Part shown: piece by piece, positions 1,771 through 25,523 of the stretch
Layout of the letters: each line of letters starts with the position of its first letter
Position numbering within the stretch: the stretch's first letter is position 1
Assembly (NCBI GenBank): GCA_021803345.1
Contig: JAJZLS010000058.1
Span: 1-35,989, forward strand
DNA: 35,989 nucleotides
Reading direction: 5' to 3'
Source of the DNA: Actinomycetes bacterium
Lineage (GTDB): Bacteria; Actinomycetota; Acidimicrobiia; Acidimicrobiales; Acidimicrobiaceae
Notes under the pieces: model-generated
Database searches by the model: none
What the model was told of the DNA's origin: nothing
What the model saw: only the letters and a program-made list of their open reading frames with translations
Made by a program: the position numbers and the translations under genes

Positions 1771-1833
1771 GACGACTGTCGACACTTTGTGTTGAGAAGG
1801 TAATTTGCTAACGTAATCGGAGAGGGACGGGGG

Positions 1834-2892
1834 ATGGAGCCATACAAGGTTGCTCTAATTCAGCAGGAGACAAAAGTTATTGTCAATCCGAGTGAACGGG
1901 ATGGCATTATCGAACAGAATCTTGACCGCATTTTTGAACTAATTCAATGGACTTTTAATCGAGTTGGCGAAGTTCGCCTTGCCGCATTTTCTGAATATGG
2001 GATCATTGGGCAATACAGACCCCGGACGGTAGATGAATGGATTGATCTCGCTGAAACGATCCCCGGTCCAGTCACCGATAAGATTGCTGAGCAAGCCCGA
2101 AGGCTGGGGGTGTATATCGTAGGAAACCTTTATGAACGTGACGATACCTGGCCCGGCAGGCTTTGGAACACTAACTTCATTATCAACGATGAAGGCAAGA
2201 TAATCCTCAAGTATCGTAAAAACAACGGTCCCAATAATCTAAATACGGTTTATACCGGACCCGGCGATGTCTATGACGAGTACACAGCACGTTACGGCGA
2301 ATTGAGTATGTTCCCGGTCGTCGATACACCGATCGGAGTTTTGGGTACTCTTACTTGCACAGACATTATATTCCCCGAGATGGCTCGCTCATTAGCACTT
2401 CAGGGAGCAGAGGTCCTCATCCATCCGACAGCCGAACCATGGTCTGATGTGGATCAGATGTGGGACATTTTTAGGCGTGCCAGGGCCTATGAGAATCTTG
2501 CGTATTTTTTATCGGTATGCGCCGGAGCATTTTTGGGGTCAGATCGGCCCAGAAACGGATATCGCGGCAATTCACAAGTGATAGACCATATGGGACGAGT
2601 TGTCTCGATTGCGGCAGGTTCCGGAGAAGCTGTTTGTGTGGGGCAAGTTGACATCAATGCCTTGAGAGAGATGCGAAGCAGAAAGCCCGGCTCAAGTGGT
2701 CATGAGTGGAACCAGCTAGTCGAGTTACGGAGCGATCTTTTTGCCGAGGTCTATAAGCGGGCACAGAGGTGGCCGAATAATGGCTGGTCTGACAAATTAA
2801 TTAAATCAACTGTCGAAACTCGGGAAAAAGGTCGAGAGATAATTGATTCACTGCTCGAAAAAGGCTTCCTCAAGAAGCCGGATTATTCCTAA
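1834..2892 (+). CDS. Nitrilase-superfamily amidohydrolase (carbon-nitrogen hydrolase)
   Basis: A cytoplasmic hydrolase of 352 residues that should cleave a non-peptide C-N bond (amide, carbamoyl or nitrile) and release ammonia. The nitrilase-fold Glu-Lys-Cys triad is visible: Glu54 in FSEYG, Lys129 in KYRKNN and Cys175 in LTCTDIIFPE. The length fits aliphatic amidase, N-carbamoyl-amino-acid hydrolase or formamidase-like members; the sequence alone does not separate these. The ATG follows a purine-rich GGAGAGGGACGGGGG stretch. It is the first gene behind the promoter at 1742 and is followed after 22 bases by an ABC importer, so its substrate may be what that importer brings in or a downstream amide intermediate. 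Family call is firm; substrate is unknown. Confidence 0.85.
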   Translation: MEPYKVALIQQETKVIVNPSERDGIIEQNLDRIFELIQWTFNRVGEVRLAAFSEYGIIGQYRPRTVDEWIDLAETIPGPVTDKIAEQARRLGVYIVGNLYERDDTWPGRLWNTNFIINDEGKIILKYRKNNGPNNLNTVYTGPGDVYDEYTARYGELSMFPVVDTPIGVLGTLTCTDIIFPEMARSLALQGAEVLIHPTAEPWSDVDQMWDIFRRARAYENLAYFLSVCAGAFLGSDRPRNGYRGNSQVIDHMGRVVSIAAGSGEAVCVGQVDINALREMRSRKPGSSGHEWNQLVELRSDLFAEVYKRAQRWPNNGWSDKLIKSTVETREKGREIIDSLLEKGFLKKPDYS

Positions 2893-2914
2893 CCTGAGCT
2901 GCTAGGTGAACGCC

Positions 2915-3781
2915 ATGGAAATTAGAGGTTTGGAGGAGTCGTTGCCCGAAGCGCCACTGAGTGGTAGTGACACTGTTTATGTCGAGTCGGACCACGTGAG
3001 CATCGGTTATCGGAGCAAGCGGACTGGCATCTACAAGCCTGCTTGCTCCGATCTTAATTTCAACATCAAGCGAGGCGAGTTTGTTGTAATTATCGGTTCC
3101 AGTGGTTGCGGTAAGACGACTTTTCTTGAAGCTGTAGCTGGATTGGTTCCCGTAACAAGGGGCGAAATTCGTATTGGAGGTCATGCAATTAAAGGGCCAG
3201 GGAAGGAGCGTTCGCTTGTATTTCAAAGTCCTTCCCTATTTCCGTGGCGGAACGTTAGAGACAATGTGTTGTTTAGCTTGCAGGCGCAGCGGAACCTAAC
3301 TCCAGAAACAAAGGCCCGAGCAGAGGACCTTATAGCATTAGTGGGGCTTAAAGATGTGATGGAAAGTTACCCTCATGAACTTTCAGGGGGGATGAAACAA
3401 AGGGTCAATTTAGCACGAGCGCTGGTGACGCAACCCCAACTTCTTTTGCTGGACGAGCCCTTTGGGGCGTTGGACGCTCAAACTCGGGAAATGATGCAGC
3501 ATGAGCTTGTAAGGATTTGGCAGGCTGCTGATCTTGGCGAAGCCCGTAATGCAATTTTTATAACTCATGATGTAGAAGAGGCGGTATTCCTGGCCGATCG
3601 GATTTTGGTATTTTCAAAATCTCCTGCTTCGTTGGCTGCTGATATTCGAGTGGAGCTTCCCAGGCCTCGTTTGCCTGCGCATAAACGCAGCCCAGAGTTT
3701 CTGAAGTTTCAAGATCTGGTACTTAGTTATCTCTATCAGGGTGACTCTAACCCTCGGGAATCGGCGGAGGATTCGAGATGA
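2915..3781 (+). CDS. ABC importer ATPase, SsuB/TauB (nitrate/sulfonate/taurine) type
   Basis: Membrane-associated ATPase that powers the permease encoded next. From the ATG at 2915 it has Walker A GSSGCGKT at residues 61-68, the Q-loop Gln at about 104, the signature LSGGM at 156-160, Walker B LLLLDEP with Asp180-Glu181, and the switch His at about 218 (ITHDVEEA). I chose ATG 2915 over the in-frame GTG at 2906 because AGGTGA at 2904-2909, which contains that GTG, is a well-spaced ribosome binding site. The end overlaps the permease start by four bases (ATGA). This subfamily imports small anions and heterocycles such as sulfonates, nitrate, thiamine precursors or aromatic acids. Here the context favours a catabolic substrate. 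Confidence 0.92.
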   Translation: MEIRGLEESLPEAPLSGSDTVYVESDHVSIGYRSKRTGIYKPACSDLNFNIKRGEFVVIIGSSGCGKTTFLEAVAGLVPVTRGEIRIGGHAIKGPGKERSLVFQSPSLFPWRNVRDNVLFSLQAQRNLTPETKARAEDLIALVGLKDVMESYPHELSGGMKQRVNLARALVTQPQLLLLDEPFGALDAQTREMMQHELVRIWQAADLGEARNAIFITHDVEEAVFLADRILVFSKSPASLAADIRVELPRPRLPAHKRSPEFLKFQDLVLSYLYQGDSNPRESAEDSR

Positions 3782-4611
3782 GCTTAGCGACTTCCGATAG
3801 AGCGCCGTCAACCACCGAAAGCGACGATGGACCTTCGAGGGGTATTGTCAACTGGATTAGGAATCACACCAAAACTGCATATGGGGTCCTTGGAGTAGCG
3901 ACGGTTCTAATTTTATGGCAGTTGACGGCGGTTACTGGGCTTGTGAATGTGACAATCGCCAGCGATCCGACTCGAGTCATTGCTGCCGAAATATCGTTGT
4001 TTTCAAGCGGGCAAATCTGGGGTCCCCTTGGTGGTACAGCCATAGAAGTGGGCTGGGGTATGTTGATCACCCTGGTAGTCAGTATTCCATTGGGCCTGAT
4101 ACTTGGGCGAGTCCGAGCACTTTACGACATGACTGAACCGATAATAAATATTTTGAATTCGGTGCCCTATGTACTTTTTCTTCCGGTAATTATCTTTTGG
4201 TTCGGTATCGGAGTCCAGTCAAGAATTCTGTTAGTGATTTGGGCAGCTACCTTGCCGTTAATTATTAACACTACGGCTGGTGTGCGAAACCTGAATTCGG
4301 ACTACATCCGGGTTGCACGGATGTGTTGTGCGGGAAGGTGGACGTTTTATCGATCGGTATTGTTTCCGGCGACTCTGCCATACATATTGACTGGTATTCG
4401 TTTGTCAATCGCCAGGGCTTTGGTTGGAGCAATTGTAGCTGAGTTTTTTCTTTCTGGAGGAGGTTTGGGGTATTTCGTCCAGACTGCTACCTCGAATTTT
4501 GACATGAATGAAGCAATGGCAGGGATATTGATTATGGCAGTAGTAGCAGTGGTTCTGACTCGACTAATTGGTCGGCTGGAACGTCGTTATACACATTGGT
4601 CACAAGGCTAG
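3778..4611 (+). CDS. ABC importer permease, SsuC/TauC type
   Basis: Integral membrane subunit of 277 residues with about six hydrophobic segments starting near residue 35. The cytoplasmic coupling region that binds the ATPase is at VARMCCAGRWTFYRSVLFPA, followed by LPYILTGIRLSIARAL, as in the BPD_transp_1 family. Translation is coupled to the ATPase by the ATGA overlap, and GGAGG lies eight bases upstream. This importer has only one permease gene, so it would form a homodimer, unlike the two other importers in the window, which each have two. The binding protein follows ten bases later. Confidence 0.92.
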   Translation: MSLATSDRAPSTTESDDGPSRGIVNWIRNHTKTAYGVLGVATVLILWQLTAVTGLVNVTIASDPTRVIAAEISLFSSGQIWGPLGGTAIEVGWGMLITLVVSIPLGLILGRVRALYDMTEPIINILNSVPYVLFLPVIIFWFGIGVQSRILLVIWAATLPLIINTTAGVRNLNSDYIRVARMCCAGRWTFYRSVLFPATLPYILTGIRLSIARALVGAIVAEFFLSGGGLGYFVQTATSNFDMNEAMAGILIMAVVAVVLTRLIGRLERRYTHWSQG

Positions 4612-4620
4612 GGGACAGTA

Positions 4621-5676
4621 ATGAAAAGAGTAGGGAACGTGGGATTGAAGGGGAAATTGTCGACAACAGCAGCCGCCATCAGTGTGGCTTTGTTAGCCGC
4701 ATCATGCGGTAGCGGCTCAGCATCGTCGAACAGCTCGTCGACTACGGCTGCGAAGTCGAGTGCAACAACTGCGGCAGCTTCGGCGGCACCAATTTCAATT
4801 ACTATTGGCGATACGGCTATTGGTGCTGGTTATGCCGATATTTATGTTGGGATACAGGATGGGATTTTCAAGAAGAATGGTTTGAATGTCAAACTCGTAA
4901 AGCTCAACACCAGTTCTCAGTTGGTGCCGGCACTTGTGGGTGGCAGTGTGCAGATAGGTGTTGGAGTTGCAGATGATTCGGCGGCTGCAATAATGAAGGG
5001 TTATCCTCTAAAGTTCATTGCATTGTCTGAAAGTCACTACAATCTGGAACTTTGGGGAGACTCAAGCATAAAGTCAGTTGCGGGTTTGGTTGGTAAAAAG
5101 GTAGCGTTGTCGGCTCCAGACTCGGAGAGCGATTTCGGACTGACTGCGTTGCTTGCAGCGAACCACATTCCAAATAGTGCGGTACAGCGAGTGTATACCG
5201 GCAGCATCCCTGGAATGGTGGCAGCCCTCGAAAGCGGATCAGCCAACGCTCTTTTGACTCAGCCTCCTCAGGGTACCTCTACGGGCAAAAAAGGCTTTGT
5301 GAAAATAGCTTCGTTGTCTAATTTACCCTTTGCTGTTGGTGCCTACACCGTTACCGCTGCATATGCCAAAGCGAATCCGACGGTGCTACAGAGGTTTGCC
5401 AAGGCTGAAGTTCAAAATCTTCAATTCTTGAGAGCACATCCAAATAAGACGATCGCAGCAATCGAGTCAAATAGCGGGATTAGCAATGCGGCTCTGGCAA
5501 AGTATGCGTATAACTTCTTCCTGAACGTGTGGACAAAAACTCCCACCGTTGACCCGTCGTTAATACAGGCAGCGTTTCAACGGGCCGCGCTCAAAGCAAA
5601 GAAGACTCCACCAACCAACATAAATCAGTACATCGACAACAGCTTTGTGCAAGCGGCACTGAATTCGGCAGGCTAG
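4621..5676 (+). CDS. ABC importer substrate-binding lipoprotein, SsuA/NMT1 type
   Basis: Exported solute-binding protein of 351 residues. The signal peptide has a basic start, a hydrophobic core and a lipobox LAASC with the lipidated Cys29. A Ser/Thr/Ala-rich linker follows (about residues 30-56), as is common in actinobacterial lipoproteins. The mature part begins with the typical strand and helix pattern of NMT1/TauA proteins: YADIYVGIQDGIFKKNGL and later LVPALVGGSVQIGVGVADD. AGGGGA precedes the ATG. It completes the ATPase-permease-binding protein set. Ligand not predictable from sequence; neighbours suggest a carboxylated (hetero)aromatic or amide compound. Confidence 0.9.
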   Translation: MKRVGNVGLKGKLSTTAAAISVALLAASCGSGSASSNSSSTTAAKSSATTAAASAAPISITIGDTAIGAGYADIYVGIQDGIFKKNGLNVKLVKLNTSSQLVPALVGGSVQIGVGVADDSAAAIMKGYPLKFIALSESHYNLELWGDSSIKSVAGLVGKKVALSAPDSESDFGLTALLAANHIPNSAVQRVYTGSIPGMVAALESGSANALLTQPPQGTSTGKKGFVKIASLSNLPFAVGAYTVTAAYAKANPTVLQRFAKAEVQNLQFLRAHPNKTIAAIESNSGISNAALAKYAYNFFLNVWTKTPTVDPSLIQAAFQRAALKAKKTPPTNINQYIDNSFVQAALNSAG

Positions 5677-5736
5677 TCGAGTATTTGATTCAAGGTTGAC
5701 TGCGGAGTTGACTGGGTTAGGCTTAGGGAGTTTTAA

Positions 5737-6438
5737 TTGGAAAATGGATGGGATCGCTTTCTAACCGAGCGTGACAGGGCAGTATTGAATGCAACGTCGT
5801 GGGCCAAGAAGGAAAGTTTTGGACTTGGCTCACGACCAGCGTTAATTGTTGTTGATGATTACTATGCCGCGCTTGGCCTTCCGAAAATGGATCTATTTGA
5901 TGCGGTTTCGGAATGGCCTTCTTCGTGTGGGCTCGAGGGTTGGAAAGCAATAGATGCGACAGTCTCCCTGGTTGAAATGTCACGAGCAGCAGGTATTCCC
6001 ATTTGTTTCACAACTTCATTTCAGCACAAGCCAAGTCCATGGAATCGCAAAGGGTCTTCTGCTCGGAGAAGAAACCTTTCTGGGATAGACCCGTACGCGA
6101 TTGTGGATGAACTTGGAGTTAGCGAAGAAGATATTGTGATCGAGAAGTCTGTGCCCAGTGCATTACAGGGCACCTCGCTTGAGATCATATTGAGATCTCT
6201 TGGCTGTGACACCGTTTTGATATGCGGCGAAGCAACAAGTGGTTGTGTAAGAGCAACGGTAGTGGATGCTTGTTGCGCTGGATTCAAAGTTGGGATCGTA
6301 GCGGAATGCTGTTTTGACAGGTTTGAAGCTTCACACTGGATGAGCTTATTTGACATGGACCAAAAGTATGGAGATCTGATAGATCTCGATTTTACTCAGG
6401 CTTATTTATTAGATATTTCAAAGAAAGAACGTATTTAG
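5737..6438 (+). CDS. Isochorismatase-family cysteine amidohydrolase (N-carbamoylsarcosine/maleamate amidase-like)
   Basis: Cytoplasmic hydrolase of 233 residues. The family's Asp-Lys-Cys triad is visible: Asp40 in ALIVVDDYY, Lys137 in VIEKSVPSALQGT and Cys170 in EATSGCVRATVV. The N-terminal WDRFLTERDRAVL followed by FGLGSRPALIVVD resembles the N-carbamoylsarcosine amidase / maleamate amidase branch rather than true isochorismatase. The start is TTG, supported by GGGAG nine bases upstream; the nearby ATG at 5744 is out of frame. Members hydrolyse small amides to acid plus ammonia, for example maleamate in nicotinate breakdown. Together with the alpha/beta hydrolase and Mo hydroxylase downstream it hints at N-heterocycle degradation. 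Substrate is inferred only. Confidence 0.82.
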   Translation: MENGWDRFLTERDRAVLNATSWAKKESFGLGSRPALIVVDDYYAALGLPKMDLFDAVSEWPSSCGLEGWKAIDATVSLVEMSRAAGIPICFTTSFQHKPSPWNRKGSSARRRNLSGIDPYAIVDELGVSEEDIVIEKSVPSALQGTSLEIILRSLGCDTVLICGEATSGCVRATVVDACCAGFKVGIVAECCFDRFEASHWMSLFDMDQKYGDLIDLDFTQAYLLDISKKERI

Positions 6439-6504
6439 GGGTCGATTGAAAATTGAGATTGTGAACGTAAAGGCAACCGGGGTCAGTTGAGGGAGTTTTG
6501 TTTT

Positions 6505-7941
6505 ATGTCAAAGTTTGATTTACGCGAATGGCTCAACGCAGCAACTAAGGATCAGCAGGTTGAGGAGATATTTGGGGCTGATGCGGTGCTGGAAATTGGT
6601 GCTGCTAGTCAGCTCAACTACAGGCGTAAGAGTCCAAAGGCCCTTTTGTTCGATCGAATCGTTGGGCATGAAGCTGGGAGACGAGTTCTGACTGGAAGTG
6701 TTTCTAATCCTAGATTAATGGGAATGACTCTTGGATTAGGAGGAAATCTTTCCGATCTCGAGTTGGTGGAACAACTAAGAGGAAAGCCACACCAGTGGGC
6801 ATCCTCGGCATCTGAATTTGCAGCAGTTGAAGTAAAAGATGGCCCAATTTTTGAGAACATTGTAGCAAAGGAAGACATCAATTTTCTTGAGTTTCCTTCT
6901 CCACTATGGCATGAACTTGACGGAGGACCATACATTGGGACTGGTTGCGCGGTAATTACTGTAGATCCAGATTCTGGAGTTTTGAATATGGGGGCCTATC
7001 GAATCCAAGTTCAGGATGACGGAGCTTCAGTAAGCATTAATATCGAGTCGGGTAAACATGGATCCCAGCACGTAAGGAAATGGTTTGAGAAAGAGGGACG
7101 TGCGCCAATTGCCGCGACCCTTGGTCAGCACCCTGTATTCCTTATAGTTGCTGGCACTGAAGTTCCATTTGGTATATCGGAGATGGACTACGCTGGTGCT
7201 ATCCTTGGGGAGCCGCTTACATTTGTGCGCGGGCCCGATACTGGACTGCCAATCCCAGCGGAAAGCGAGATTGCATTCGAGGGATGGCTTTATCCAGATC
7301 GAAAGCGCCCCGAAGGACCATTTGGAGAATGGACTGGTTATTACTCGGGCGGAATAGCTCCAGTGCTTACAGCTGAAGTGACGGGATTGTTTCATCGAAA
7401 TAACCCTATCAATTTGGGTGCGCCTCCGGGTAAACCACCTCATGATTATTCCTATATGCGCTCGGTAATGAAGTCCGCTATGGCGACCGACGGTCTGATA
7501 AGTAGTGGACTTGCTGGGGTTCGTGGGGTTTGGTGTCACGAAGTAGGCGGGGGTCGGTCAATAATTGCAGTGGCAATCGAGCAGAGATATGCTGGTCATT
7601 CGCGCCAGGCCGGTTATCTGGCAGCTCAGCATCCAGTAACTGCTTATATGAACCGTTTCGTGATAGCAGTTGATGACGATATAAATCCAAGGGACTTAGA
7701 CGAGGTGATGTGGGCTGTGTCTACACGCTGTGATCCTCAACGAGATATCGAGGTAATGCGATACAGCTGGGGAAGTCGAGTCGATCCACTTGGCTTGCCG
7801 GGACAACCTGCCTATAATTCCCGGGTTCTAATCGATGCCTGCAGACCATTCGAGAGAATTGATAGTTTTCCAATAGTTGCGGAGTCAAGTAGCGATATTC
7901 TTCGCAGGGTTGCAGAAAAATGGCCTGGGTTAACTCAGTGA
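6505..7941 (+). CDS. UbiD-family prenylated-FMN-dependent (de)carboxylase, copy 1
   Basis: Soluble enzyme of 478 residues that should use prenylated FMN to remove or add a carboxyl group on an aromatic, heteroaromatic or alpha,beta-unsaturated acid. Catalytic features are intact: YIGTG at 143-147, the cofactor/metal-binding Asn161 and catalytic Arg166 in NMGAYRIQVQD, and the paired glutamates Glu270 and Glu275 in EGPFGEWTGYYSG. These correspond to the Arg-Glu-Glu network of fungal Fdc1. I chose the ATG at 6505 because AGGGAG sits about ten bases upstream; a TTG 18 bases earlier overlaps that site. It depends on the UbiX-type protein at 15326 for cofactor. It is clearly paralogous to the minus-strand gene at 18834. 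Confidence 0.93.
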   Translation: MSKFDLREWLNAATKDQQVEEIFGADAVLEIGAASQLNYRRKSPKALLFDRIVGHEAGRRVLTGSVSNPRLMGMTLGLGGNLSDLELVEQLRGKPHQWASSASEFAAVEVKDGPIFENIVAKEDINFLEFPSPLWHELDGGPYIGTGCAVITVDPDSGVLNMGAYRIQVQDDGASVSINIESGKHGSQHVRKWFEKEGRAPIAATLGQHPVFLIVAGTEVPFGISEMDYAGAILGEPLTFVRGPDTGLPIPAESEIAFEGWLYPDRKRPEGPFGEWTGYYSGGIAPVLTAEVTGLFHRNNPINLGAPPGKPPHDYSYMRSVMKSAMATDGLISSGLAGVRGVWCHEVGGGRSIIAVAIEQRYAGHSRQAGYLAAQHPVTAYMNRFVIAVDDDINPRDLDEVMWAVSTRCDPQRDIEVMRYSWGSRVDPLGLPGQPAYNSRVLIDACRPFERIDSFPIVAESSSDILRRVAEKWPGLTQ

Positions 7942-8065
7942 TGACGAACTCATCCAGCATCTACCATAGGCAATTTGGTTTAACCTTCGCTATGGCAACT
8001 AGATATCGCATTAAGAGTTGTGGCATCTTTATTTTGGAAGAATACAGCTGGTAGAAAAAGGCGAC

Positions 8066-8932
8066 ATGAGCGAAGCATATGGCGAGGTTAAAAATCCAGA
8101 TACTAGTCCTGTCAGCGATGATGCGCAGCGTAAATCAGCTGAGCATGATATAGAAGTGCGACGCGGTGGACTTGAGATTTCACATAGCAAGCCATTTGAC
8201 CCGTCAATAGTTGATAGGGATCGGCGGGAGTTGATGCTGCTCAGCATACGTGATGCGGGAGATAGGGCACCACTTGCCCAAGAGATTTTTGATGAGATTG
8301 CAATTGAAATTGTTGAAGGAAGACTCCGGCCTGGGGATGTACTGAATTCTGTGGAATTGGCACAAAGGTTTGGAACCAGTCGGACCCCAGTGCGTGAGGC
8401 GCTTGTTGAACTTGAAAGACAAGGAATAGTTGTTGTTCCGCCTCGGCGGCGGCCCTATATAGCCCAGCTTACATTGAAGCAGATTAAAGATGTCTACGAC
8501 ATTAGATCTGCTTTGAATGCATTGGTGAGCGAATTGATCGTTGAGAGACTTGATCAGAGTGGGCTTAGAGAGCTTTGGGATTGGTATTACGCACTTGAGG
8601 AAGATGTTGCTAATGGTGAAGTTGACCGGTATTTCTGGCACAATGTCGGTTTCCGTTTGGTCGAGGCTCGCCTATCGGTAAATGATGACCTTCAGCGGAT
8701 ACTTGGAACTTTGGGGCTTAGAACTTTACAATTCCGCCATCTGAGTCTGTCGCTGCCAGGAAGGCTTCAGCGATCTCTGGATGATCACAAAAGGTTGTTG
8801 GTTGCTTATGAAGAGAAGGACGCTCAGTCGGCTATAGCTGCGACGAGGTCTCTAATCATGCTTGGTTACAGGGCAATTGAGCGTTCTGGATTGGTGTCAG
8901 CTAGCTACGGGAATATGGAGGAGAATGAATGA
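8066..8932 (+). CDS. GntR-family transcriptional regulator, FCD (FadR/VanR-like) subfamily
   Basis: Cytoplasmic DNA-binding regulator of 288 residues. After a long polar N-terminal tail (about 65 residues) comes the winged helix: LAQEIFDEIAIEIVEGRLRPGDVLN, then the recognition region LAQRFGTSRTPVREALVELERQGIV. The C-terminal half is an all-helical FCD effector domain with His residues that could bind metal or ligand (YFWHNVGFR and LDDHKRLLVAYEEKD). The ATG at 8066 follows a weak AAAAGG; a TTG at 8018 is open in frame but has no ribosome site. The stop overlaps the next gene by four bases. Members usually repress catabolic operons until the substrate or an intermediate appears, so this is the likely local regulator of cluster A. 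Confidence 0.88.
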   Translation: MSEAYGEVKNPDTSPVSDDAQRKSAEHDIEVRRGGLEISHSKPFDPSIVDRDRRELMLLSIRDAGDRAPLAQEIFDEIAIEIVEGRLRPGDVLNSVELAQRFGTSRTPVREALVELERQGIVVVPPRRRPYIAQLTLKQIKDVYDIRSALNALVSELIVERLDQSGLRELWDWYYALEEDVANGEVDRYFWHNVGFRLVEARLSVNDDLQRILGTLGLRTLQFRHLSLSLPGRLQRSLDDHKRLLVAYEEKDAQSAIAATRSLIMLGYRAIERSGLVSASYGNMEENE

Positions 8933-14689: not shown

Positions 14690-14709
14690 CAAAGATTAGA
14701 GAGGCAAAT

Positions 14710-15300: not shown

Positions 15301-15325
15301 TTGGGCTGATAGGGAGTGGTTTCTG

Positions 15326-16000: not shown

Positions 16001-16135
16001 TTGATTTTCAGTCGATGTAGCCGGTGGAGTTCTGCCATTCGGGCTTGAGAAGTAGCCAGTGAGACGTGTGATTAAAGCTAATTCTTTCTGACTTTATCAA
16101 AGCAACTTTGCGACTGGCTATGAGGTTGTTGTTTC

Positions 16136-16165
16136 TATGGCTCATGCCATATCTAGAGGAGATAT
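16136..16165 (+). promoter_or_regulatory. Two adjoining small hairpins in the leader of the NCS2 permease
   Basis: In the 224-base gap before the permease, TATGGC (16136-16141) pairs with GCCATA (16146-16151), and directly overlapping it ATATCT (16149-16154) pairs with AGATAT (16160-16165). The two stems share bases, so they could be alternative structures. I see no purine-riboswitch core. Inverted TAGCCAGT / ACTGGCTA segments lie further upstream in the same gap. A leader control element is possible but unproven. Confidence 0.3.
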
Positions 16166-16224
16166 TCGGTTTTAGTTCATTGCAGGTTGAGGCTATACCT
16201 TGCAATTGAGTGATGGAGGGGAAA

Positions 16225-17628: not shown

Positions 17629-17649
17629 GGTCAGCTCGAGTTTTACTAA

Positions 17650-17687
17650 ATGGGATCCACAGGTGGAATGCAGCCTGTGGATCCCAT
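17650..17687 (+). terminator. Strong 14-bp hairpin ending cluster A (no T-run)
   Basis: A perfect 14-bp inverted repeat: ATGGGATCCACAGG at 17650-17663 and its exact complement at 17674-17687, with a ten-base loop. It starts 22 bases after the permease stop and lies between convergent genes. There is no T-tract directly after it on either strand; a T7 run occurs about 75 bases later. It probably ends or protects the 3' end of the long plus-strand transcript. Confidence 0.6.
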
Positions 17688-17970
17688 CAGCTGAGATATC
17701 AGATCGTATGATTGGTTACTGGGCGAGTTAGTCCGTAGACATTGCAAAAATTTCGTTATCTCTTTTTTTGAAAATTTATAAGATAAATCATCATGGACCC
17801 GATTGCTAGGGGTCAAATTTCGGTAGTGGTGGCCATACTATTGCATTTGCGAATGGTAACTAAACTGCATCGTTCGTTTTCAAGTTCGCCTGGGACAAAA
17901 GAAATGTTACCAGGATCCGTATCTAGTGCCAAAGTAGCTACTTCCGCTCCGAGATGCCTAGCTTTTACGT
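17688..17970. other. Convergent intergenic region
   Basis: This stretch separates the plus-strand permease from the 3' end of the minus-strand IclR gene. It is AT-rich, with a T7 run at about 17762-17769 followed by AAAATTTATAAG. I see no coding signal on either strand that looks real. It probably holds transcription-end signals only. Confidence 0.45.
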
Positions 17971-18810: not shown

Positions 18811-18833
18811 TAAGTAACTTTGCGGTTATTTGA

Positions 18834-20279
18834 TTAAATTGGGTTCAAGATATGTGACCATTTGGCTTCCACCGTTCTCAAGTATTCGGGGTTTGATTCC
18901 GCCACTTTTGGAAACGTCGTCAAACGTTCGAAAGGGCGGCAAGCATCTACGATTGCCCGATTGTTATACGAGGGTAATCCGGGAACCAACATTGGGTCAA
19001 GTTTACTTCCCCATGTTTTATGTAAAATTTCAATGTCGGTTGCTGGATCGCAACGAGTCGACATTGCCCAAATTACCTGGCCTAAGTCACTTGGGTCAAT
19101 GTCGTCATCTACAACAACCACGAAGCGGTTCATATAGGCTGCAGCTGGGCATTGTGCCGTCAGAAAACCCACTTGACGGGAGTGCCCAGCAAAGCGTTGT
19201 TCCAGAGATACTGCAATAAATAGCCTGCCGCCCCCGGACTCATGTGCCCAGGCAGAACGAACACCAGCTACCCCCATAGCAGCCAGTTCATCCTGGATCA
19301 TCGCGGACTTCAACATGGTTCGCATGTATGAATAGTCGTGTGGAGGTTTATTCGGCGGAGCACCTAACAAGATTGGATCGTCGCGATGATAGAGTGCCTG
19401 AATATCTATGGCTAAGGCTGGTCGCCCGTCTCCGGAATAGTATCCAGTCCATTCTCCGAATGGACCTTCATTTCTGGTGTTATCAGGGGTAAGCCAACCT
19501 TCAATTACGATTTCGGCGCCAGCAGGAATAGGAAGGCCTGTAACTGGTCCCAATACCACTGGCACATGTTTGCCAAGAATTGCTCCAGCGTAATCGAGTT
19601 CGAAAATCCCTGACGGAACTTCAGTCCCGCCCACTACTAAAAGAAGGGGATCGTGACCAAATGACACTGCAACTGGTGCTCTACCTGCCTTCTTGAACCA
19701 TCTATCAATGTGTTGGGCCCCATGTTTGCCTGGGACTGCTGCCAAGGTCACAGATTTTCCGTCATCTTGGACTTCCATTCTGTAGCAGCCACCATTGTAT
19801 TTCCCGGTTTCTGGGTCGCTTGTTACAACAAAACATCCGGTGCCGATGTATCGTCCGCCGTCATCTTCATGCCATCTGGGGACTGGGAATTTCAATAAAT
19901 TAATATCTTTGTCTTCGATATGATTTTCAAAAAACGGTGCAGAATCTATGATTGTGTGACTAAATGATTTAGAATCCGCCGCCCACTTTGAAGGCTTTGA
20001 GTGTAAAGCTGCTACGAGTTCAAGGTTGTTTAAGTCCTCTCCCAGGTTCAAGGTTCTGCCCAGCCTGCCCGGCGTGGTAATACTTCCGGTAAGAATTCTA
20101 TACCCAGGTAAGTAATCAACTATATTATCGAAAAGAAGTGCATTGGACATAGGTTTTTTATAGTTTATTTCTGCAATTGCTCCGATTTCAAGGTCCCAGT
20201 CAGCTCCATTGATATGCGTTATTTCATCTTTTGCTATAGCTTTATCTATAAATGTTCTTAGGCTTAACAGTGGTTCCAT
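18834..20279 (-). CDS. UbiD-family prenylated-FMN-dependent (de)carboxylase, copy 2
   Basis: A second UbiD-type enzyme, 481 residues, with the same intact centre: YIGTG at 144-148, Asn162 and Arg167 in YNGGCYRMEVQDDG, and the glutamate pair Glu271 and Glu276 in EGPFGEWTGYYSG. It aligns with copy 1 along its length (shared stretches include KPPHDYSYMR and GHSRQ), so they are paralogs, but many positions differ and the substrates may too. GAGAGG precedes the ATG. Upstream on the same strand is the RraA-like gene (gap 145 bases), downstream the IclR gene. Cofactor must come from the UbiX-like protein encoded in cluster A or from elsewhere in the genome. Confidence 0.93.
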   Translation of the reverse strand: MEPLLSLRTFIDKAIAKDEITHINGADWDLEIGAIAEINYKKPMSNALLFDNIVDYLPGYRILTGSITTPGRLGRTLNLGEDLNNLELVAALHSKPSKWAADSKSFSHTIIDSAPFFENHIEDKDINLLKFPVPRWHEDDGGRYIGTGCFVVTSDPETGKYNGGCYRMEVQDDGKSVTLAAVPGKHGAQHIDRWFKKAGRAPVAVSFGHDPLLLVVGGTEVPSGIFELDYAGAILGKHVPVVLGPVTGLPIPAGAEIVIEGWLTPDNTRNEGPFGEWTGYYSGDGRPALAIDIQALYHRDDPILLGAPPNKPPHDYSYMRTMLKSAMIQDELAAMGVAGVRSAWAHESGGGRLFIAVSLEQRFAGHSRQVGFLTAQCPAAAYMNRFVVVVDDDIDPSDLGQVIWAMSTRCDPATDIEILHKTWGSKLDPMLVPGLPSYNNRAIVDACRPFERLTTFPKVAESNPEYLRTVEAKWSHILNPI

Positions 20280-20424
20280 GCTTTAGCTGCCTCTCGTATA
20301 GGTGATTTTATTTCAATAAAAGTAGCATCAGGGCTGATGGCATAATTGAGTTAAGTTTTTGCATAAAGGTGATTTAATTACTTGTCAGAGCTCTTCAGAT
20401 TCTAAAAATTGTGATTGCCGTTGG

Positions 20425-21099
20425 TTAGTCCGATAACTTCGTTGTAATTGAATCTTTTAGACTATGGCCGGATTTACTGAATCCATAAAGATCGTAGGTA
20501 TATTCGCCCTTAATGATTGATTTTTTAGTTCCCATTTCCTTCAAATAGTTTTGTTCTGCAGTTGCCAAAACCATGTCCACGCGGTTCTTGGGTATTACCA
20601 CTCCACCATCCCCATCAAGTATGATGGTGTCGCCTGGCATGATTTTCACGCCTCCAAGAGTTATCGGCACATTCATCTGGCCGATTTCATCTTTTGCAGC
20701 CGCCCGTGCGCTAATCCACCGAGACCAGATCGGTAATCCCAGCTCGCGAATAGCGTCTGTGTCTCTGACCGCTCCATTGATGAGAATTCCAGCTACCTGG
20801 GCCTTTTGCGCTTGGAGCGCGAGGAGCTCGCCGATAAGAGCCAGCGGCACTGGAGATTCCATGGAAATAGCCAGTATTTCGCCGGGAAGGATATATTTCA
20901 TAACTTCATGCACAGAGCGGTTGCCACCGGAGCTGAGTAGCAAAGTTCGTGCTGGTCCGGCGATCCGACTAGTGGGAATTATTTGTTTAAGATCTAAGTC
21001 AATCAAACCATTTTTATTTGATGCTTCGTAGATGCTCGCAACGCCAAAATTTGCAAATCGTTTATACACATCATGGCCAAGATCAGTTTTAGTGCTCAT
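20425..21099 (-). CDS. RraA-like protein (HMG/CHA aldolase superfamily)
   Basis: Cytoplasmic protein of 224 residues of the RraA / 4-hydroxy-4-methyl-2-oxoglutarate aldolase family. Family elements are GPARTLLL, the GELLALQAQKAQVAGILINGAVRDTDAI segment with the Arg-Asp pair used for metal and pyruvate binding, LPIWSRWISARAA, and the late MPGDTIILDGDGGVVIPK motif. Catalytic members split 4-carboxy-4-hydroxy-2-oxoadipate-type acids to pyruvate, or decarboxylate oxaloacetate, at the end of aromatic routes; others only bind RNase E. With a UbiD gene next, an aldolase or decarboxylase role is favoured. It is divergent from the CoxG/Mo hydroxylase genes, sharing a 157-base control region. Confidence 0.85.
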   Translation of the reverse strand: MSTKTDLGHDVYKRFANFGVASIYEASNKNGLIDLDLKQIIPTSRIAGPARTLLLSSGGNRSVHEVMKYILPGEILAISMESPVPLALIGELLALQAQKAQVAGILINGAVRDTDAIRELGLPIWSRWISARAAAKDEIGQMNVPITLGGVKIMPGDTIILDGDGGVVIPKNRVDMVLATAEQNYLKEMGTKKSIIKGEYTYDLYGFSKSGHSLKDSITTKLSD

Positions 21100-21187
21100 A
21101 AGGTTCGATCCAATCTTTATCTTAGTTTTAACTCGTCAATCTGTAATAACCAGACTTCTGCAACTCCGATCGCTTAGACCAAAATGG

Positions 21188-21216
21188 TTGACATGGGGTG
21201 TCGTACAGACTAGTGT
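21188..21216 (+). promoter_or_regulatory. Candidate promoter of the CoxG-CoxMLS operon
   Basis: TTGACA at 21188-21193, a 17-base spacer and TAGTGT at 21211-21216. The start site would be about 21223, giving a short leader before the TTG start at 21257. The spacer holds TGTCGTACA, and AGAC-N4-GTCT (21207-21218) straddles the -10, which could be a regulator site. The same box pair and spacing occurs at 25879. The region also lies upstream of the divergent RraA-like gene. Confidence 0.6.
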
Positions 21217-21256
21217 CTATTGCACAGAACATAAGGTCTTGTCAGGCGGTCAATAA

Positions 21257-21871
21257 TTGCAGATTTCTTCAGACTTTAGCATTGAAAGCGATCCTAGTCA
21301 CGTTTTTGATATTTTTCTTGATCCAAAGGTGATGAGGCAATGCATTCCAGGTTGTACTGACCTTGAACGAATTGATGACCTCCATTATCAGGGTGGCCTG
21401 ACAAATGAGGTAGCACACGTCAAATTCAGTGCCCGATTCGCGGCCGAAATCGTTGAGCTTGACCGGCCTAACCGAATAAAGGCGGTTTTGTCAGGTGAGG
21501 ATCGTCGCCTGGGTAGTTCTATCAAAGTTACTATCAGTCTGGATTTGAAACCACGTGATACTGGGTGTGATGTCGCCTATCAGATGGAAATTGCACTATG
21601 GGGGAAGCTTGGACGACTAGGAGAATCCATCATTAGAAGACGTACCAGCGAAGTTGAGAGGGATTTTGTTTCAGCCGTAGTGCGCGCTTGTAACGAGTCG
21701 CAAGCGCAAATATCTGTCGGAGAGCTTTCAGCCGTATTATCGCCGTCACCTTTGCCTGATGAAGCGCAAAGATTAAAGGTCGATCAGTTTGCAGTAAATG
21801 GAAATACCGATTCGGTAGGTTTCTTGGTGCGGGTCTGGCGACTGGTTAATCGTTTCAGGAGAAAAAAATGA
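21257..21871 (+). CDS. CoxG-like SRPBCC protein
   Basis: Protein of 204 residues of the CoxG branch of the START/SRPBCC fold. The N-terminal domain (about residues 1-145) shows the CoxG pattern FDIFLDPKVMRQCIPGCTDLE, YQGGLTNEVAHVKFSA and LSGEDRRLGSSIKVTISLDL. The basic C-terminal tail may contact the membrane. CoxG proteins are encoded with Mo hydroxylases and are thought to anchor or mature them; the precise role is not settled. The TTG start is the only reasonable one, because an in-frame TAA lies directly before it. AGGCGG is a modest ribosome site. It overlaps the next gene by four bases. Confidence 0.83.
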   Translation: MQISSDFSIESDPSHVFDIFLDPKVMRQCIPGCTDLERIDDLHYQGGLTNEVAHVKFSARFAAEIVELDRPNRIKAVLSGEDRRLGSSIKVTISLDLKPRDTGCDVAYQMEIALWGKLGRLGESIIRRRTSEVERDFVSAVVRACNESQAQISVGELSAVLSPSPLPDEAQRLKVDQFAVNGNTDSVGFLVRVWRLVNRFRRKK

Positions 21872-22719
21872 GACCTAATGTATTTCGACCTCAGAGCCTC
21901 CAAGAGGCTTGCAGTCTCTTAGAGGAACACGAAGAGGCTTTAGTTTATGGTGGTGGGACTGCTCTTCAGATTCTTCTAAAACAGGGGATTCTTGTTGGAA
22001 GCTCCTTTATCGATATATCTGGGATTCCCGGACTCGCCGAGATAAGTTTTACAGATGACTTTTTGCGGGTAGGTCCGATGGTAACCTTGCGCAGGATGGA
22101 GCGGAGTGAGGAGATTAGGGAGCTATTCTCGCTTGCGTCATCTGCGTATGCCAAAGTTGCGAACCCCAGAGTCCGCAATACAGCGACTGTAGGCGGAAAT
22201 ATTGCTCATGGTGATTATCGACTGGATCCTCCCGTGGCTTTGCTTGTACTTGGAGCCAGCGTGGAACTTACCTCGAGAAATAGTATTCGCAAAGTTCCAT
22301 TAGAGGAATTCTTTGTTGACTTTCAAGTTACTGATATTTCAGCAGGGGAGATTGTCACAGCGGTTGAGATTCCAAGATCTATTCATCTTGCCGGTTCCAG
22401 TTTTGTAAAGCTTTCTAGTTTGAGTGCAAACGATTGGCCAAGTGCCTCTGCTGCTGTGGGATTGATGGAAAATGACAACGGTGTTCATACTTTGCGATTG
22501 GCTTTGGGTGCGCTGGCAGCCACTCCGGTGATGGCAACGGTCGATATTAGAAATCTCAATTTGGATCAGACGCTGGAAGCGTCACTATCTAAAGCGATGG
22601 AGTTGATGGATCCCATTGCTGATGTGCGAGGAAGCGTGAAGTACAAGTTGAGATTAGGTCGTGTCGCAGTTGAGGAAGCGATTAGAAGCGCTTGGAAGGA
22701 GGTACCCAATGGGCGGTGA
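21868..22719 (+). CDS. Mo hydroxylase FAD-binding subunit (CoxM-like), set 2
   Basis: FAD subunit of 283 residues. Signature regions are ALVYGGGTALQILLKQG (about residues 25-41) and NPRVRNTATVGGNIAHGDY (about 98-116), with the usual C-terminal CO_deh_flav_C domain. AGGAG lies seven bases before the ATG, which overlaps the CoxG stop. It passes electrons from the small subunit to an acceptor. It differs well from the set 1 FAD subunit, and here the large subunit follows immediately, so the gene order (M-L-S) differs from set 1. The two sets therefore look like separate acquisitions rather than a recent duplication. Confidence 0.9.
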   Translation: MRPNVFRPQSLQEACSLLEEHEEALVYGGGTALQILLKQGILVGSSFIDISGIPGLAEISFTDDFLRVGPMVTLRRMERSEEIRELFSLASSAYAKVANPRVRNTATVGGNIAHGDYRLDPPVALLVLGASVELTSRNSIRKVPLEEFFVDFQVTDISAGEIVTAVEIPRSIHLAGSSFVKLSSLSANDWPSASAAVGLMENDNGVHTLRLALGALAATPVMATVDIRNLNLDQTLEASLSKAMELMDPIADVRGSVKYKLRLGRVAVEEAIRSAWKEVPNGR

Positions 22720-25051
22720 TTTGACAAACTTGGAAATTGAGAATGACGCAGCAGCAGTGGGCCAGAGTTGGCAGCGTTCAGATCTTGAAGCCAAGGTAAG
22801 GGGAACGTTTCGTTATACAGCTGACCTGCCAGTTCCAAGGTGTCTTTACCTCGGCGTTCATCGCGCAAGTCAACCTCATGCAAGAATTCTAAATATTGAC
22901 ATTAGTAGTGCTTTAGAGATGCCAGGGGTCGTGAGAGTGGTAACAGGCGCTGACCTGTTTGGTATCTATGGTGAGCTAATTTATACCGGACCTGCGTTTG
23001 CGGACCAGCCCCCAATTGCAATTGATAAGGTTCGCTATGTAGGTGAGCCGATAGCGGTTGTAGTCGCAACAGATTTGATTACAGCTCGAGCTGCTGCGGA
23101 TGAGGTTTATGTCGAATATGGTGAGCTTCCAGCAGTTCTGGATGTCGACGATGCAATAAGTGGAAGTGACTATGTCCACGAGCATCTTAGGCCATCGTCA
23201 GTATTTAGTGATCTCAAGCACCTCCAGGGGCGTGGTGAGACAAACGTGAATTATGAGTATAACCTGACCTCCGGTGACGTGGAAAAGGCGAAAGCTAACT
23301 CTGATAAAACCGTATCTGGTGAGTTCTGGTGTCCACCCACGTCGCATGTGGCCATAGAATTGTTTAGCACCACAGCATGGGTGGAGGGGAATCGTTTGGA
23401 AGTGGTTACTACCACTCAGACTCCCTCGTATGTACGACAAGCGCTTGCATCGATGCTGGACATCAGATTGAATCAAGTCAGAGTGAGGACTCAGCCTTTG
23501 GGTGGCGGCTTCGGATCGAAAATGTATGACCGGTTGGAGCCGCTAGTTGCAGCAATTTCCTGGACCTACAAACTGGCCGTAAAGTTGGAGATTACCAGGG
23601 AAGAGACTTTTGTATTGACGACTCGACATGGTGTAGCGGTCAGCTCTCAAATGTCGGCTGATTCTATTGGGATGATTGTGTCAGCTGAGGCGGATGTCCG
23701 TTACGACACTGGCGCATATGCCGATATCGGTCCGAGGATTGCCTCGAAATCGGGAATGGTTGCCTGTGGACCATATAAGGTTGCAAATGCTCGCGTTCGC
23801 TCCCGTTGTATTTATACCAATAAGACATCTGCTGGACCGTTTCGAGGATTTGGAGTGCCGCAGGTTACTTGGTCGCACGAGTCCCTTGTAGATGAACTTG
23901 CAAGAGAGTTTGGCGAGGATCCTGCCCAGTTTCGCAGGAAGAATTTGCTACGGGAAGGCGATGTTGCGCCGATGGGCACGGTCATGCACAGCGCAGATTT
24001 TGTTGGATGCATGGACGCCGTTACAAGCGCAATTGGTTGGAATACGCCCCTTGAGCGAGCCCGTGGACCATGGAGGTGGGGACGCGGTGTGGCTGTTGGT
24101 ATAAAGGCAGTTCTGACTCCTACGATTTCAAACGCGGTACTGCAGCTTAATCAGGATGCCAGTGCCACCCTGTTAATATCTACCGTTGACATGGGTCAAG
24201 GCAGCGACACCATTATGGCCCAAATTGTCGCAGAGATTCTTTGTCTCGGACCAGATCAGGTTCGGGTCGTAAACCCAGATACGGACATCACCCCCTATGA
24301 CACCATAACTGCTGGTAGCCGATCCACTTATCACACTGGCAACGCTGTAAAGAAAGTGGCCGAACGCATGAGGGAGAAGCTCATTTCTATCGCCGCTCAG
24401 CTTTTGGGTGTTTCCGAAACTGATTGCAAACTGACTAATGGTGGTGTGGTTGCCAGTTCAAGCCAGAAATATCTCTCGATTGATGAAATCATGCAGCTGC
24501 ATTTTGGCGCTATTGGCACAACCTTGACGACGGAATCAAATTTCACCACTGAATGGATCCCCTATGACAAAGAGACTGGTCAATCGGTCAAGGTCACCGA
24601 ACATTGGTTTGCTGGAGCGGCTGCAGTGGAACTTGGCGTTGACACCAGGACGGGCAGAATCCATATAGCACACCTAGCAGTTGCGGGTGATGTTGGCCGG
24701 GCAATTAACCCTGCACTGGTAAAGCAGCAGCTTGAAGGCGGGGCCATAATGGGATTAGGTCATGCGCTGTTTGATGAGATTGTGATGGATCATGGCCAGA
24801 TGATAAACGGGACGTTGCTTGACTATCAATTGCCATCCGTAAAGGACCTTCCTGACCGGCTGACTCCAATAATTATAGAGAATCCGCATCAAACCGGACC
24901 TTTTGGGGCCAAGGGGGTTGGAGAGACCGCAATTATTCCAATAGCTCCGTCAATAGCTAATGCGGTCCGGGATGCCATCGGAATTCGTTTTACTAGATTG
25001 CCACTTACGCCAGAACGACTGCTAATGGCGATGGCTGGAGAAGGGGACTGA
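22709..25051 (+). CDS. Mo hydroxylase molybdopterin-binding catalytic subunit (XdhD/CoxL-like), set 2
   Basis: Catalytic subunit of 780 residues. Motifs: GGGFGSKMYDR near residue 268, PFRGFGVPQ in the active-site region (typical of xanthine-dehydrogenase and related heterocycle hydroxylases), DMGQGSDTIMAQ, GSRSTYHTGNAV, and GAKGVGETAIIP with the catalytic Glu near the end. I chose ATG 22709, six bases after a perfect AAGGAGG; it overlaps the FAD-subunit gene by 11 bases. The Phe-Arg-Gly-Phe-Gly pattern differs from set 1, so the substrate probably differs. The neighbouring UbiD and RraA-like genes suggest a ring hydroxylation step in an aromatic or heterocyclic pathway. Confidence 0.92.
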   Translation: MGGDLTNLEIENDAAAVGQSWQRSDLEAKVRGTFRYTADLPVPRCLYLGVHRASQPHARILNIDISSALEMPGVVRVVTGADLFGIYGELIYTGPAFADQPPIAIDKVRYVGEPIAVVVATDLITARAAADEVYVEYGELPAVLDVDDAISGSDYVHEHLRPSSVFSDLKHLQGRGETNVNYEYNLTSGDVEKAKANSDKTVSGEFWCPPTSHVAIELFSTTAWVEGNRLEVVTTTQTPSYVRQALASMLDIRLNQVRVRTQPLGGGFGSKMYDRLEPLVAAISWTYKLAVKLEITREETFVLTTRHGVAVSSQMSADSIGMIVSAEADVRYDTGAYADIGPRIASKSGMVACGPYKVANARVRSRCIYTNKTSAGPFRGFGVPQVTWSHESLVDELAREFGEDPAQFRRKNLLREGDVAPMGTVMHSADFVGCMDAVTSAIGWNTPLERARGPWRWGRGVAVGIKAVLTPTISNAVLQLNQDASATLLISTVDMGQGSDTIMAQIVAEILCLGPDQVRVVNPDTDITPYDTITAGSRSTYHTGNAVKKVAERMREKLISIAAQLLGVSETDCKLTNGGVVASSSQKYLSIDEIMQLHFGAIGTTLTTESNFTTEWIPYDKETGQSVKVTEHWFAGAAAVELGVDTRTGRIHIAHLAVAGDVGRAINPALVKQQLEGGAIMGLGHALFDEIVMDHGQMINGTLLDYQLPSVKDLPDRLTPIIIENPHQTGPFGAKGVGETAIIPIAPSIANAVRDAIGIRFTRLPLTPERLLMAMAGEGD

Positions 25052-25055
25052 GAAG

Positions 25056-25523
25056 ATGAATATGGTTTTTCAGATCAATGGTCGAGACGTCGGAATTGAA
25101 GTTTCCGACAGCGAGCTTCTGCTCGACACTCTCAGGCACATTGGATTTAGCAGTGTCCGTGAAGGCTGCGGGGTTGGAGCATGCGGGTCATGTACCGTTC
25201 TAGTAGATGGGAAAAGTGTTAGCTCTTGTTTAGTGTTGACGAGTAGGTGTAATGGCTCCTCAATTCTGACAAGCGAAGGTCTTGCAGATGACGATCCTGT
25301 GGTTAGCCAATTCATAAAGAATGGCGCGGCCCAGTGTGGTTACTGTATACCTGGCTTTGTCATGATGGTAAGCGAACTCCTTAGCGAGAACCCGATTCCG
25401 ACGGAGCAGGAGATCTACAATCACCTGGAGGGAAATATTTGCCGCTGCGGCAGTTACCCGGAGATTGTCCAGGCCGCTATGGATGCGTCAAAGGCTAAGC
25501 AGACTTCAAAGTTAACTTGTTAG
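25056..25523 (+). CDS. Mo hydroxylase [2Fe-2S] subunit (CoxS-like), set 2
   Basis: Small subunit of 155 residues with both iron-sulfur sites complete: Cys38, Cys43, Cys46 and Cys58 (EGCGVGACGSCTV, SCL) and Cys94, Cys97, Cys129 and Cys131 (QCGYCIPGF, ICRCGSYP). It carries electrons between the Mo site and the FAD. It follows the large subunit by four bases. The start could be ATG 25056 or ATG 25062; the first is taken for its spacing from GGGG upstream. Last gene of this operon before a 500-base gap. Confidence 0.92.
   Translation: MNMVFQINGRDVGIEVSDSELLLDTLRHIGFSSVREGCGVGACGSCTVLVDGKSVSSCLVLTSRCNGSSILTSEGLADDDPVVSQFIKNGAAQCGYCIPGFVMMVSELLSENPIPTEQEIYNHLEGNICRCGSYPEIVQAAMDASKAKQTSKLTC

Follow-up and report, generated by a model that had tools for sequence, protein, structure and literature searches.

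Gene content of the locus

We analysed a stretch of 35,989 nucleotides (hereafter the window) from an actinobacterium of the Acidimicrobiaceae, whose genome assembly (2.65 Mb, 90 contigs) is 94.9% complete; the window is its contig 31. The window carries two genes for predicted UbiD-family decarboxylases dependent on prenylated flavin mononucleotide (prFMN), together with two gene sets for molybdenum (Mo) hydroxylases and a number of hydrolases, regulators and importers. In the window, 35 open reading frames (ORFs) were searched against Pfam, and NCBIfam models were also applied. These searches recovered every gene named in a previous description made from the letters of the DNA (the sequence-only reading), which had proposed a single pathway island for the degradation of a carboxylated N-heterocycle, and added to that inventory two ABC importers (2906-5676 and 26051-29459), an O-methyltransferase, an NCS2 permease and CoxG. 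The genes are listed below as module A (1834-17628) and module B (17971-29459):

1834-2892, + strand: nitrilase-superfamily amidase, formamidase- or deaminated-glutathione-amidase-like (Pfam CN_hydrolase, 1e-39; solved-structure hits)
2906-5676, + strand: ABC importer with ATPase (2906-3781), permease (3778-4611) and NMT1-type binding protein (4621-5676) (Pfam)
5737-6438, + strand: isochorismatase-superfamily amidase (Pfam, 3e-26)
6487-7941, + strand: UbiD1, predicted prFMN-dependent decarboxylase (Pfam UbiD, 7e-58)
8018-8932, + strand: GntR/FCD regulator (Pfam)
8929-9966, + strand: ACMSD-like Amidohydro_2 protein, decarboxylase or hydrolase (Pfam, 1e-30; best solved relatives ACMSD, E 4e-33)
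9878-10858, + strand: PcaD-like alpha/beta hydrolase of the enol-lactonase type (Pfam, 7e-31)
10855-14595, + strand: Mo hydroxylase 1 (Mo1), with flavin adenine dinucleotide (FAD) subunit (10855-11739), 2Fe-2S subunit (11717-12247) and Mo subunit (12169-14595) (Pfam)
14710-15300, + strand: O-methyltransferase-like protein (Pfam Methyltransf_3, 8e-20)
15326-16000, + strand: UbiX-like flavin prenyltransferase (TIGR00421, 145.5 bits, cut-off 108.9)
16210-17628, + strand: NCS2 (xanthine/uracil-type) permease (Pfam, 4e-49)
17971-18810, - strand: IclR regulator (Pfam IclR_C, 5e-19)
18834-20279, - strand: UbiD2, predicted prFMN-dependent decarboxylase (Pfam, 5e-62)
20425-21099, - strand: RraA-like aldolase/decarboxylase (Pfam, 2e-31)
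21257-21871, + strand: CoxG (Pfam)
21868-25523, + strand: Mo hydroxylase 2 (Mo2), with FAD subunit (21868-22719), Mo subunit (22661-25051) and 2Fe-2S subunit (25056-25523) (Pfam)
26051-29459, + strand: ABC importer with NMT1-type binding protein (26051-27058), ATPase and two permeases (Pfam)

Catalytic residues and nearest relatives

Both UbiDs scored above the PF01977 cut-off of 23.3 bits (195.6 bits for UbiD1 and 209.3 bits for UbiD2), and their N and C domains also exceeded the respective cut-offs. The Arg-Glu-Glu residues named as catalytic for UbiD in the available part of one source (PMC8379154) were located by alignment at R172, E276 and E281 in UbiD1 and at R167, E271 and E276 in UbiD2, in agreement with the earlier statement that both centres are intact. 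The nearest solved relative of both enzymes is 7pda_A (272.6 bits for UbiD1 and 303.3 bits for UbiD2), for which no substrate was found in the literature looked into. For UbiD1 the solved entries 6h6x and 6h6v, which we take to be HmfF, rank next (149.8 bits versus 272.6 bits for 7pda_A), and its scores against 4ip2 (139.9 bits), 7p9q (120.1 bits) and 7ae4 (presumably VdcC; 145.2 bits) are likewise far lower than against 7pda_A. The decarboxylases of pyrrole-2-carboxylate (HudA), indole-3-carboxylate (AnInD) and phenolic acids (VdcCD) also belong to the UbiD family and use prFMN. The substrate-binding position is His297 in HmfF and Asn318 in HudA, as given in the accessible portion of the source (PMC7976604); the alignment with 6h6x places His319 of UbiD1 there and those with 4ip2 (PA0254/HudA) and 7abo give an insertion or Tyr316 of UbiD2, so that these hand-counted alignments disagree.

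All three subunits (FAD, 2x2Fe-2S and molybdenum cofactor) of both Mo hydroxylases were found by Pfam, and the catalytic glutamate, Glu765 in Mo1 and Glu755 in Mo2, is present in 29 of 31 relatives in each case, the other two showing gaps. Enzymes of the xanthine-oxidase family hydroxylate the ring carbon beside a heteroatom, using water. The nearest solved relative of Mo1 is CoxL of 8uem, followed almost equally by two N-heterocycle hydroxylases, quinoline 2-oxidoreductase and 6-hydroxypseudooxynicotine dehydrogenase, and that of Mo2 is 4-hydroxybenzoyl-CoA (coenzyme A) reductase, followed by 6-hydroxypseudooxynicotine dehydrogenase. Form I aerobic carbon monoxide (CO) dehydrogenase was considered and ruled out for both, since its active-site loop is a Cys-bearing motif from which the loops SLRGAGR (Mo1) and PFRGFGV (Mo2) differ; on the CO-dehydrogenase-like NCBIfam model the Mo1 large subunit reached 780 bits, under the cut-off of 950.

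The predicted hydrolases were also checked for their active-site residues. In the Amidohydro_2 protein the metal ligands H17, H19, H185, H235 and D301 are found in 25 of 25 aligned relatives. The alpha/beta hydrolase reached 171.7 bits on the PcaD model, under its cut-off of 255.85, and its Ser and its His are kept in 35 and 34 of 35 relatives, the presumed acid residue not being conserved. The isochorismatase-type amidase, whose nearest solved relative of named function is N-carbamoylsarcosine amidohydrolase, has the triad Asp40-Lys137-Cys170, kept in 13 of 13 aligned relatives, and the nitrilase has E54-K129-C175, with the E-K-C residues kept in both of two relatives.

Two separately conserved modules

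Relatives of UbiD1 were scanned in GTDB genomes, which gave a sample of 79 loci from the best 80 matches, each taken with as much as 10 kb on either side. Onto these loci we mapped 33 window proteins by tblastn with floors for score and identity, short contigs being scored as misses; some genes in GC-rich relative loci were mis-called. Copies from the genome itself were removed before counting by an identity filter, as was a 17.8-kb stretch of a contig from a metagenome-assembled genome (Actinomycetes bacterium isolate LSA3.bin6; L015) that is 99.94% identical to positions 136-17938 of the window. A maximum likelihood tree of 87 UbiD sequences, built with a quick method, resolved two sister clades of 28 rows each, clade A with UbiD1 (Shimodaira-Hasegawa-like approximate likelihood ratio test [SH-aLRT] 99) and clade B with UbiD2 (SH-aLRT 100). 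From the 95 rows available for the tree, 8 rows under seven locus ids had been removed: L001, L004, L008, L013 and L014 as copies of the same genes, L088 for its near identity to L093, and the acidobacterial relative L048, which is no copy. The neighbour counts cover 27 loci of clade A, 27 of clade B and 24 loci of other UbiDs, L048 and some short loci lying outside them.

Around the clade-A UbiDs the alpha/beta hydrolase was found in 25 of the 27 loci, Amidohydro_2 (at least 30% identity) in 24, the GntR/FCD regulator in 23, the NMT1-type binding protein in 22 and a Mo large subunit of any type in 22, which is a Mo1 orthologue (at least 55% identity) in 12 loci and a different Mo hydroxylase in 10, eight of them in Streptomyces. 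Clade-B loci carry instead the IclR regulator (20/27), Mo2 and CoxG (19/27 each), an alpha/beta hydrolase (17/27) and the binding protein and permeases of the module-B importer (13/27), and five loci lacking that binding protein (L050, L062, L074, L077 and L079) have MFS transporters. GntR/FCD and Amidohydro_2 were counted in none of the 27 clade-B loci, and IclR in none of the 27 of clade A. Of the 24 loci of other UbiDs, 13 have a Mo hydroxylase, none has a relative of the alpha/beta hydrolase and none has Amidohydro_2 at 30% identity or more. Hits under the floors, left uncounted, included those to Amidohydro_2 at 24-25% (24% in L046 of clade B, 25% in L041 and L042 among the other UbiDs), to CoxG at 26-27% (L023, L032, L035 and L081) and to the nitrilase at 30% (L060); a Binatia locus holds a distant Amidohydro_2 protein. 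A UbiX-type gene accompanies 14 of the 27 clade-A and 8 of the 27 clade-B UbiDs.

Because the left and right halves of the stretch recur separately around related UbiDs, it is, on this comparative evidence, two adjacent, separately conserved clusters that meet between 17628 and 17971, and not one island. Thus, of the earlier proposal of a single pathway island, the conserved neighbourhood of Mo hydroxylase, UbiD and hydrolases holds, and the claim that exactly this gene set acts as one pathway is not supported; one fixed island was ruled out, modules A and B being conserved apart from each other. Of the UbiD, Mo hydroxylase and isochorismatase genes whose co-occurrence had been suggested as a check, the UbiD-Mo pairing recurs, and the isochorismatase gene is found in 8 of 27 clade-A and 7 of 27 clade-B loci. 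All 8 of those in clade A are among the 12 loci that carry Mo1, the 15 loci lacking Mo1 having none (shared ancestry uncorrected).

Several other genes appear peripheral. The nitrilase (at least 50% identity) and the RraA-like gene are not core, because each occurs in only 2 of the 27 loci of its own clade (the nearest relatives L045 and L049 for the latter, the alpha/beta hydrolase being found in 17 other clade-B loci). The O-methyltransferase-like gene is restricted to the nearest relatives (2/27 clade-A loci), and the NCS2 permease to one clade-A locus of 27 (L081), where a 38% identical relative closes module A. Additionally, seven neighbour families that recur in these loci and are absent from the window were each represented by one scanned member: three MFS transporters, a LysR regulator, an XdhC-type Mo maturation factor, a short-chain dehydrogenase and a beta-lactamase-family protein; no oxygenase was among these seven, most of the flanking genes being unannotated.

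The pairing of UbiD with a Mo hydroxylase was also seen in loci of Acidobacteriota, Chloroflexota and Binatota. Six acidobacterial UbiDs (L041, L042, L051, L054, L055 and L072), 57-58% identical to UbiD2, lie beside a Mo hydroxylase, which suggests that the pairing is wider than Actinomycetota. A gene family of the TctA/TctB transporter type adjoins these acidobacterial loci (one member scanned).

These associations bear on a rival explanation, namely that the UbiDs carry out ordinary phenolic or benzoic acid decarboxylation and the Mo enzymes aldehyde or CO oxidation, the genes being neighbours only through an accumulation of catabolic genes. The genome does match 10 large subunits of the xanthine-oxidase family and six UbiDs, and Mo1 has CoxL as its top solved hit besides its sub-threshold score on the CO-dehydrogenase-like model. 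However, related UbiDs from several families of actinobacteria have these same gene sets around them, more than expected by chance, and neither Mo1 nor Mo2 has the Cys-bearing loop, so that we consider this explanation improbable. As a small control, the four other UbiDs of the genome have no match (E<=1e-10) to other window proteins in their surrounding stretches of 6.9-12 kb. As the genome also holds two matches to heme-copper oxidases in addition to the 10 Mo large subunits, its owner is probably an aerobe rich in Mo hydroxylases.

Distribution of Mo1 and Mo2 among genomes

The UbiD loci led to a set of 35 carrier genomes, reached via 37 loci, in which a Mo2 orthologue is present in 21 and a Mo1 orthologue in 15, with 10 genomes having both, 11 only Mo2 and 5 only Mo1. 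In 20 of the 21 genomes with Mo2, a clade-B UbiD sits no more than about 4 kb from it, and in 14 of the 15 with Mo1 a clade-A UbiD sits no more than about 10 kb away; for the two exceptions the UbiD is on other contigs or was not found. A phylum sample comprising 395 genomes besides the window's own contained no further UbiD of this type (E<=1e-120), and one was detected in one of 147 others of the order (G081), a rare and patchy occurrence, as expected for a dispensable catabolic trait.

In G081, about 11 kb of contig 58 (L094:9207-19629 and L099:3-1250) carries a UbiX gene, a clade-A UbiD, the alpha/beta hydrolase and Mo1, which faces Mo2 and CoxG. As this arrangement joins both Mo sets to one UbiD, it is the best evidence that both Mo hydroxylases can, as far as gene order tells, work in one pathway. 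An Iso_dh-family dehydrogenase and a PEP_mutase-family protein are encoded upstream on the same contig.

The possibility that modules A and B together form one pathway, in which a single heteroaromatic (di)carboxylate would be hydroxylated twice and decarboxylated twice as with pyridinedicarboxylates, has to be weighed against this background. Their adjacency in the window, the genomes carrying both Mo1 and Mo2 and the combination in G081 speak for it. Yet the 10 genomes with both are about the 9 expected under independence (15 x 21 / 35), which makes the co-occurrence uninformative in this set, and the two enzymes are far apart where their distance could be read: in Pseudonocardia dioxanivorans they lie at 4.01 and 5.41 Mb of one chromosome (1.4 Mb apart) and in Amycolatopsis sp. 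2-2 at 5.26 and 6.87 Mb (1.6 Mb apart), and in the remaining 8 genomes they are on different contigs. Besides the 16 carriers that have one without the other, G081 has a single UbiD match (E<=1e-60), hence only one UbiD of this kind, and the regulators of the two modules differ (GntR versus IclR). We regard one joint pathway as rather unlikely.

Proposed function and comparison with known pathways

The gene content and its conservation lead us to propose, with moderate confidence, that the locus probably holds two catabolic modules, each conserved on its own, that would degrade (hetero)aromatic carboxylic acids by Mo hydroxylation, prFMN-dependent decarboxylation and hydrolytic opening. We infer the order of the steps, the type of ring and the catabolic role itself from the predicted enzymes. 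A dedicated importer would take up the acid, and the Mo hydroxylase would put a water-derived hydroxyl on the ring, which in the ortho or para position would activate the acid for decarboxylation by UbiD. The latter, with prFMN supplied by a UbiX, would then strip the ring carboxylate, after which the alpha/beta hydrolase (in most loci), in module A together with the ACMSD-like Amidohydro_2 protein, could open or shorten a lactam or lactone. The ACMSD-like protein may also take off a second carboxylate. Lastly, the isochorismatase-type amidase would free ammonia in the clade-A loci that bear Mo1, a step that speaks for a nitrogen heterocycle in module A. A carboxylated N-heterocycle is a plausible substrate class, and a furan-type acid fits the core as well.

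A number of observations weigh against this proposal. The UbiX-like protein of the window has Trp138-Glu139 (with a TGG codon) where 22 of 22 aligned relatives have Arg-Glu, so that the conserved pair is lost, and the nearly identical contig L015 encodes the same protein with Trp138; moreover, the genome gave just one further UbiX match, a partial one on contig 18 (L101), although six UbiDs are present. Amidases are found in a minority of the loci, and the 43.8-kb contig of G081 gave no match to the isochorismatase, nitrilase or Amidohydro_2 of the window. In clade A, 10 of the 27 loci have another Mo hydroxylase, about 30% identical to Mo2, and their Amidohydro_2 proteins and alpha/beta hydrolases are only about 31-37% identical to those of the window; clade-A UbiDs may therefore serve differing chemistry, and the orthology of these two hydrolases is uncertain in the 10 loci. 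Furthermore, 7 of the 27 clade-B loci, all in Micromonosporaceae (L040, L057, L061, L064, L068, L071 and L073), have UbiD2 but, in its surroundings, neither a Mo hydroxylase nor CoxG, IclR or an alpha/beta hydrolase, and Mo2 was undetected (E<=1e-120) in 6 of these 7 genomes. Three of these loci (L057, L068 and L073) have a neighbouring gene in common, which in L057 encodes an NMT1-type binding protein.

Among known systems, the closest logic appears to be that of the hmf furan pathway and of 6-hydroxyquinolinate decarboxylation. The hmf genes of Cupriavidus basilensis HMF14 include the UbiD homologue HmfF and the UbiX homologue HmfG (available part of PMC6644310), and HmfABC is a Mo-dependent dehydrogenase for a heteroaromatic acid (available part of PMC6678421). 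The hmf set (hmfABCDE and hmfFG) therefore shares UbiD, UbiX and a Mo dehydrogenase with the window, and the portions of these sources at hand name no oxygenase for it. The hmf pathway works on CoA thioesters, formed by the synthetase HmfD and proposed to be cleaved by the thioesterase HmfE, whereas the window showed no CoA ligase and has, in addition, an alpha/beta hydrolase, an ACMSD-like protein and amidases. Assignment to hmf was ruled out, since no acyl-CoA ligase or thioesterase family occurs among the 35 ORFs given to Pfam, a search confined to the window.

Nevertheless, modules of this kind might act on furan-type or other oxygen heteroaromatic acids, with hydroxylation beside the ring oxygen, PcaD-like opening of a lactone and a UbiD acting as in HmfF. 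The combination of UbiD, UbiX and a three-subunit Mo hydroxylase equals the hmf core, the lactone hydrolysis of that pathway had no assigned gene in the accessible part of its description (PMC6678421), and the amidases are not core to either module. The two structures taken to be HmfF also come next after 7pda_A for UbiD1. On the other hand, 2-furoate is processed as a CoA ester, for which the scanned ORFs offer no ligase or thioesterase domain, isochorismatase-type amidases accompany 8 of the 12 clade-A UbiDs with Mo1 and 7 of the 27 clade-B UbiDs, and UbiD1 is much nearer to 7pda_A than to HmfF. We find a furan-type substrate rather improbable on these grounds.

A nitrogen heterocycle, as proposed above for module A, has a parallel in the quinolinate route of Alcaligenes sp. 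UK21, in which quinolinate dehydrogenase hydroxylates the substrate before 6-hydroxyquinolinate is decarboxylated. This decarboxylation is non-oxidative (available part of PMC6644310). The order, hydroxylation of an N-heteroaromatic acid and then decarboxylation, is that suggested for the window, a likeness by description only. The pic cluster of Alcaligenes faecalis encodes the dehydrogenase PicA for the first hydroxylation, the amidohydrolase-family decarboxylase PicC and the maleamate amidohydrolase PicF (PMC10142695, seen in part), and so resembles the window in combining hydroxylation by a dehydrogenase, an amidohydrolase-family decarboxylase and an amidase. It differs in its monooxygenase PicB and dioxygenase PicD, which were not found in the window, and in the part of that paper available no UbiD is named. 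The pic/nic 2,5-dihydroxypyridine pathway was ruled out, as neither a ring-hydroxylating monooxygenase nor a ring-cleaving dioxygenase was found among the 35 window ORFs given to Pfam, to which the search was confined.

The absence of usual oxygenase steps, part of the earlier reading, was upheld: no oxygenase of any kind was found among the 35 window ORFs given to Pfam. The earlier reading knew of no described pathway with this exact gene set, and no described cluster of this content was among the papers listed in our literature searches, most subscription papers lying outside their coverage. The two sister modules are best described as an uncharacterised type that couples a Mo hydroxylase to a prFMN-dependent decarboxylase. 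A broader view, which we put forward tentatively and as a possibility more than an expectation, is that Mo hydroxylases and prFMN-dependent decarboxylases form an undescribed general partnership that extends beyond Actinomycetota. Heteroaromatic acids in free form, not bound to CoA, would be degraded by it without oxygenases, through hydroxylation with water, decarboxylation with prFMN and hydrolytic opening. Modules A and B would be its actinobacterial specialisations and the locus of G081 a fused form with two hydroxylations and one decarboxylation.

Few UbiDs have known heteroaromatic substrates and fewer sit in whole pathways. Here, two sister clades are tied to their own Mo hydroxylase, regulator and hydrolases in organisms that include the cultured Pseudonocardia dioxanivorans CB1190, which makes their substrates and the order of steps testable and could reveal a route for heterocyclic acids without a ring-cleaving oxygenase.

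Other features of the window

Past module B, the reverse strand at 30072-35989 carries a third group of genes, with a thiamine pyrophosphate (TPP) enzyme, an ABC importer and an FAA-hydrolase-family gene. Relatives of the TPP and FAA genes were found near none of the 54 clade-A and clade-B loci. The TPP enzyme is encoded by two ORFs overlapping by 11 bp, the first with the N and middle domains and the second with the C domain, which may be a natural split or a frameshift. At the other end of the window, two overlapping reverse-strand ORFs at 472-1594, one matching DUF4143 and the other AAA_14, are read in different frames and look like a single ATPase gene disrupted by a frameshift.

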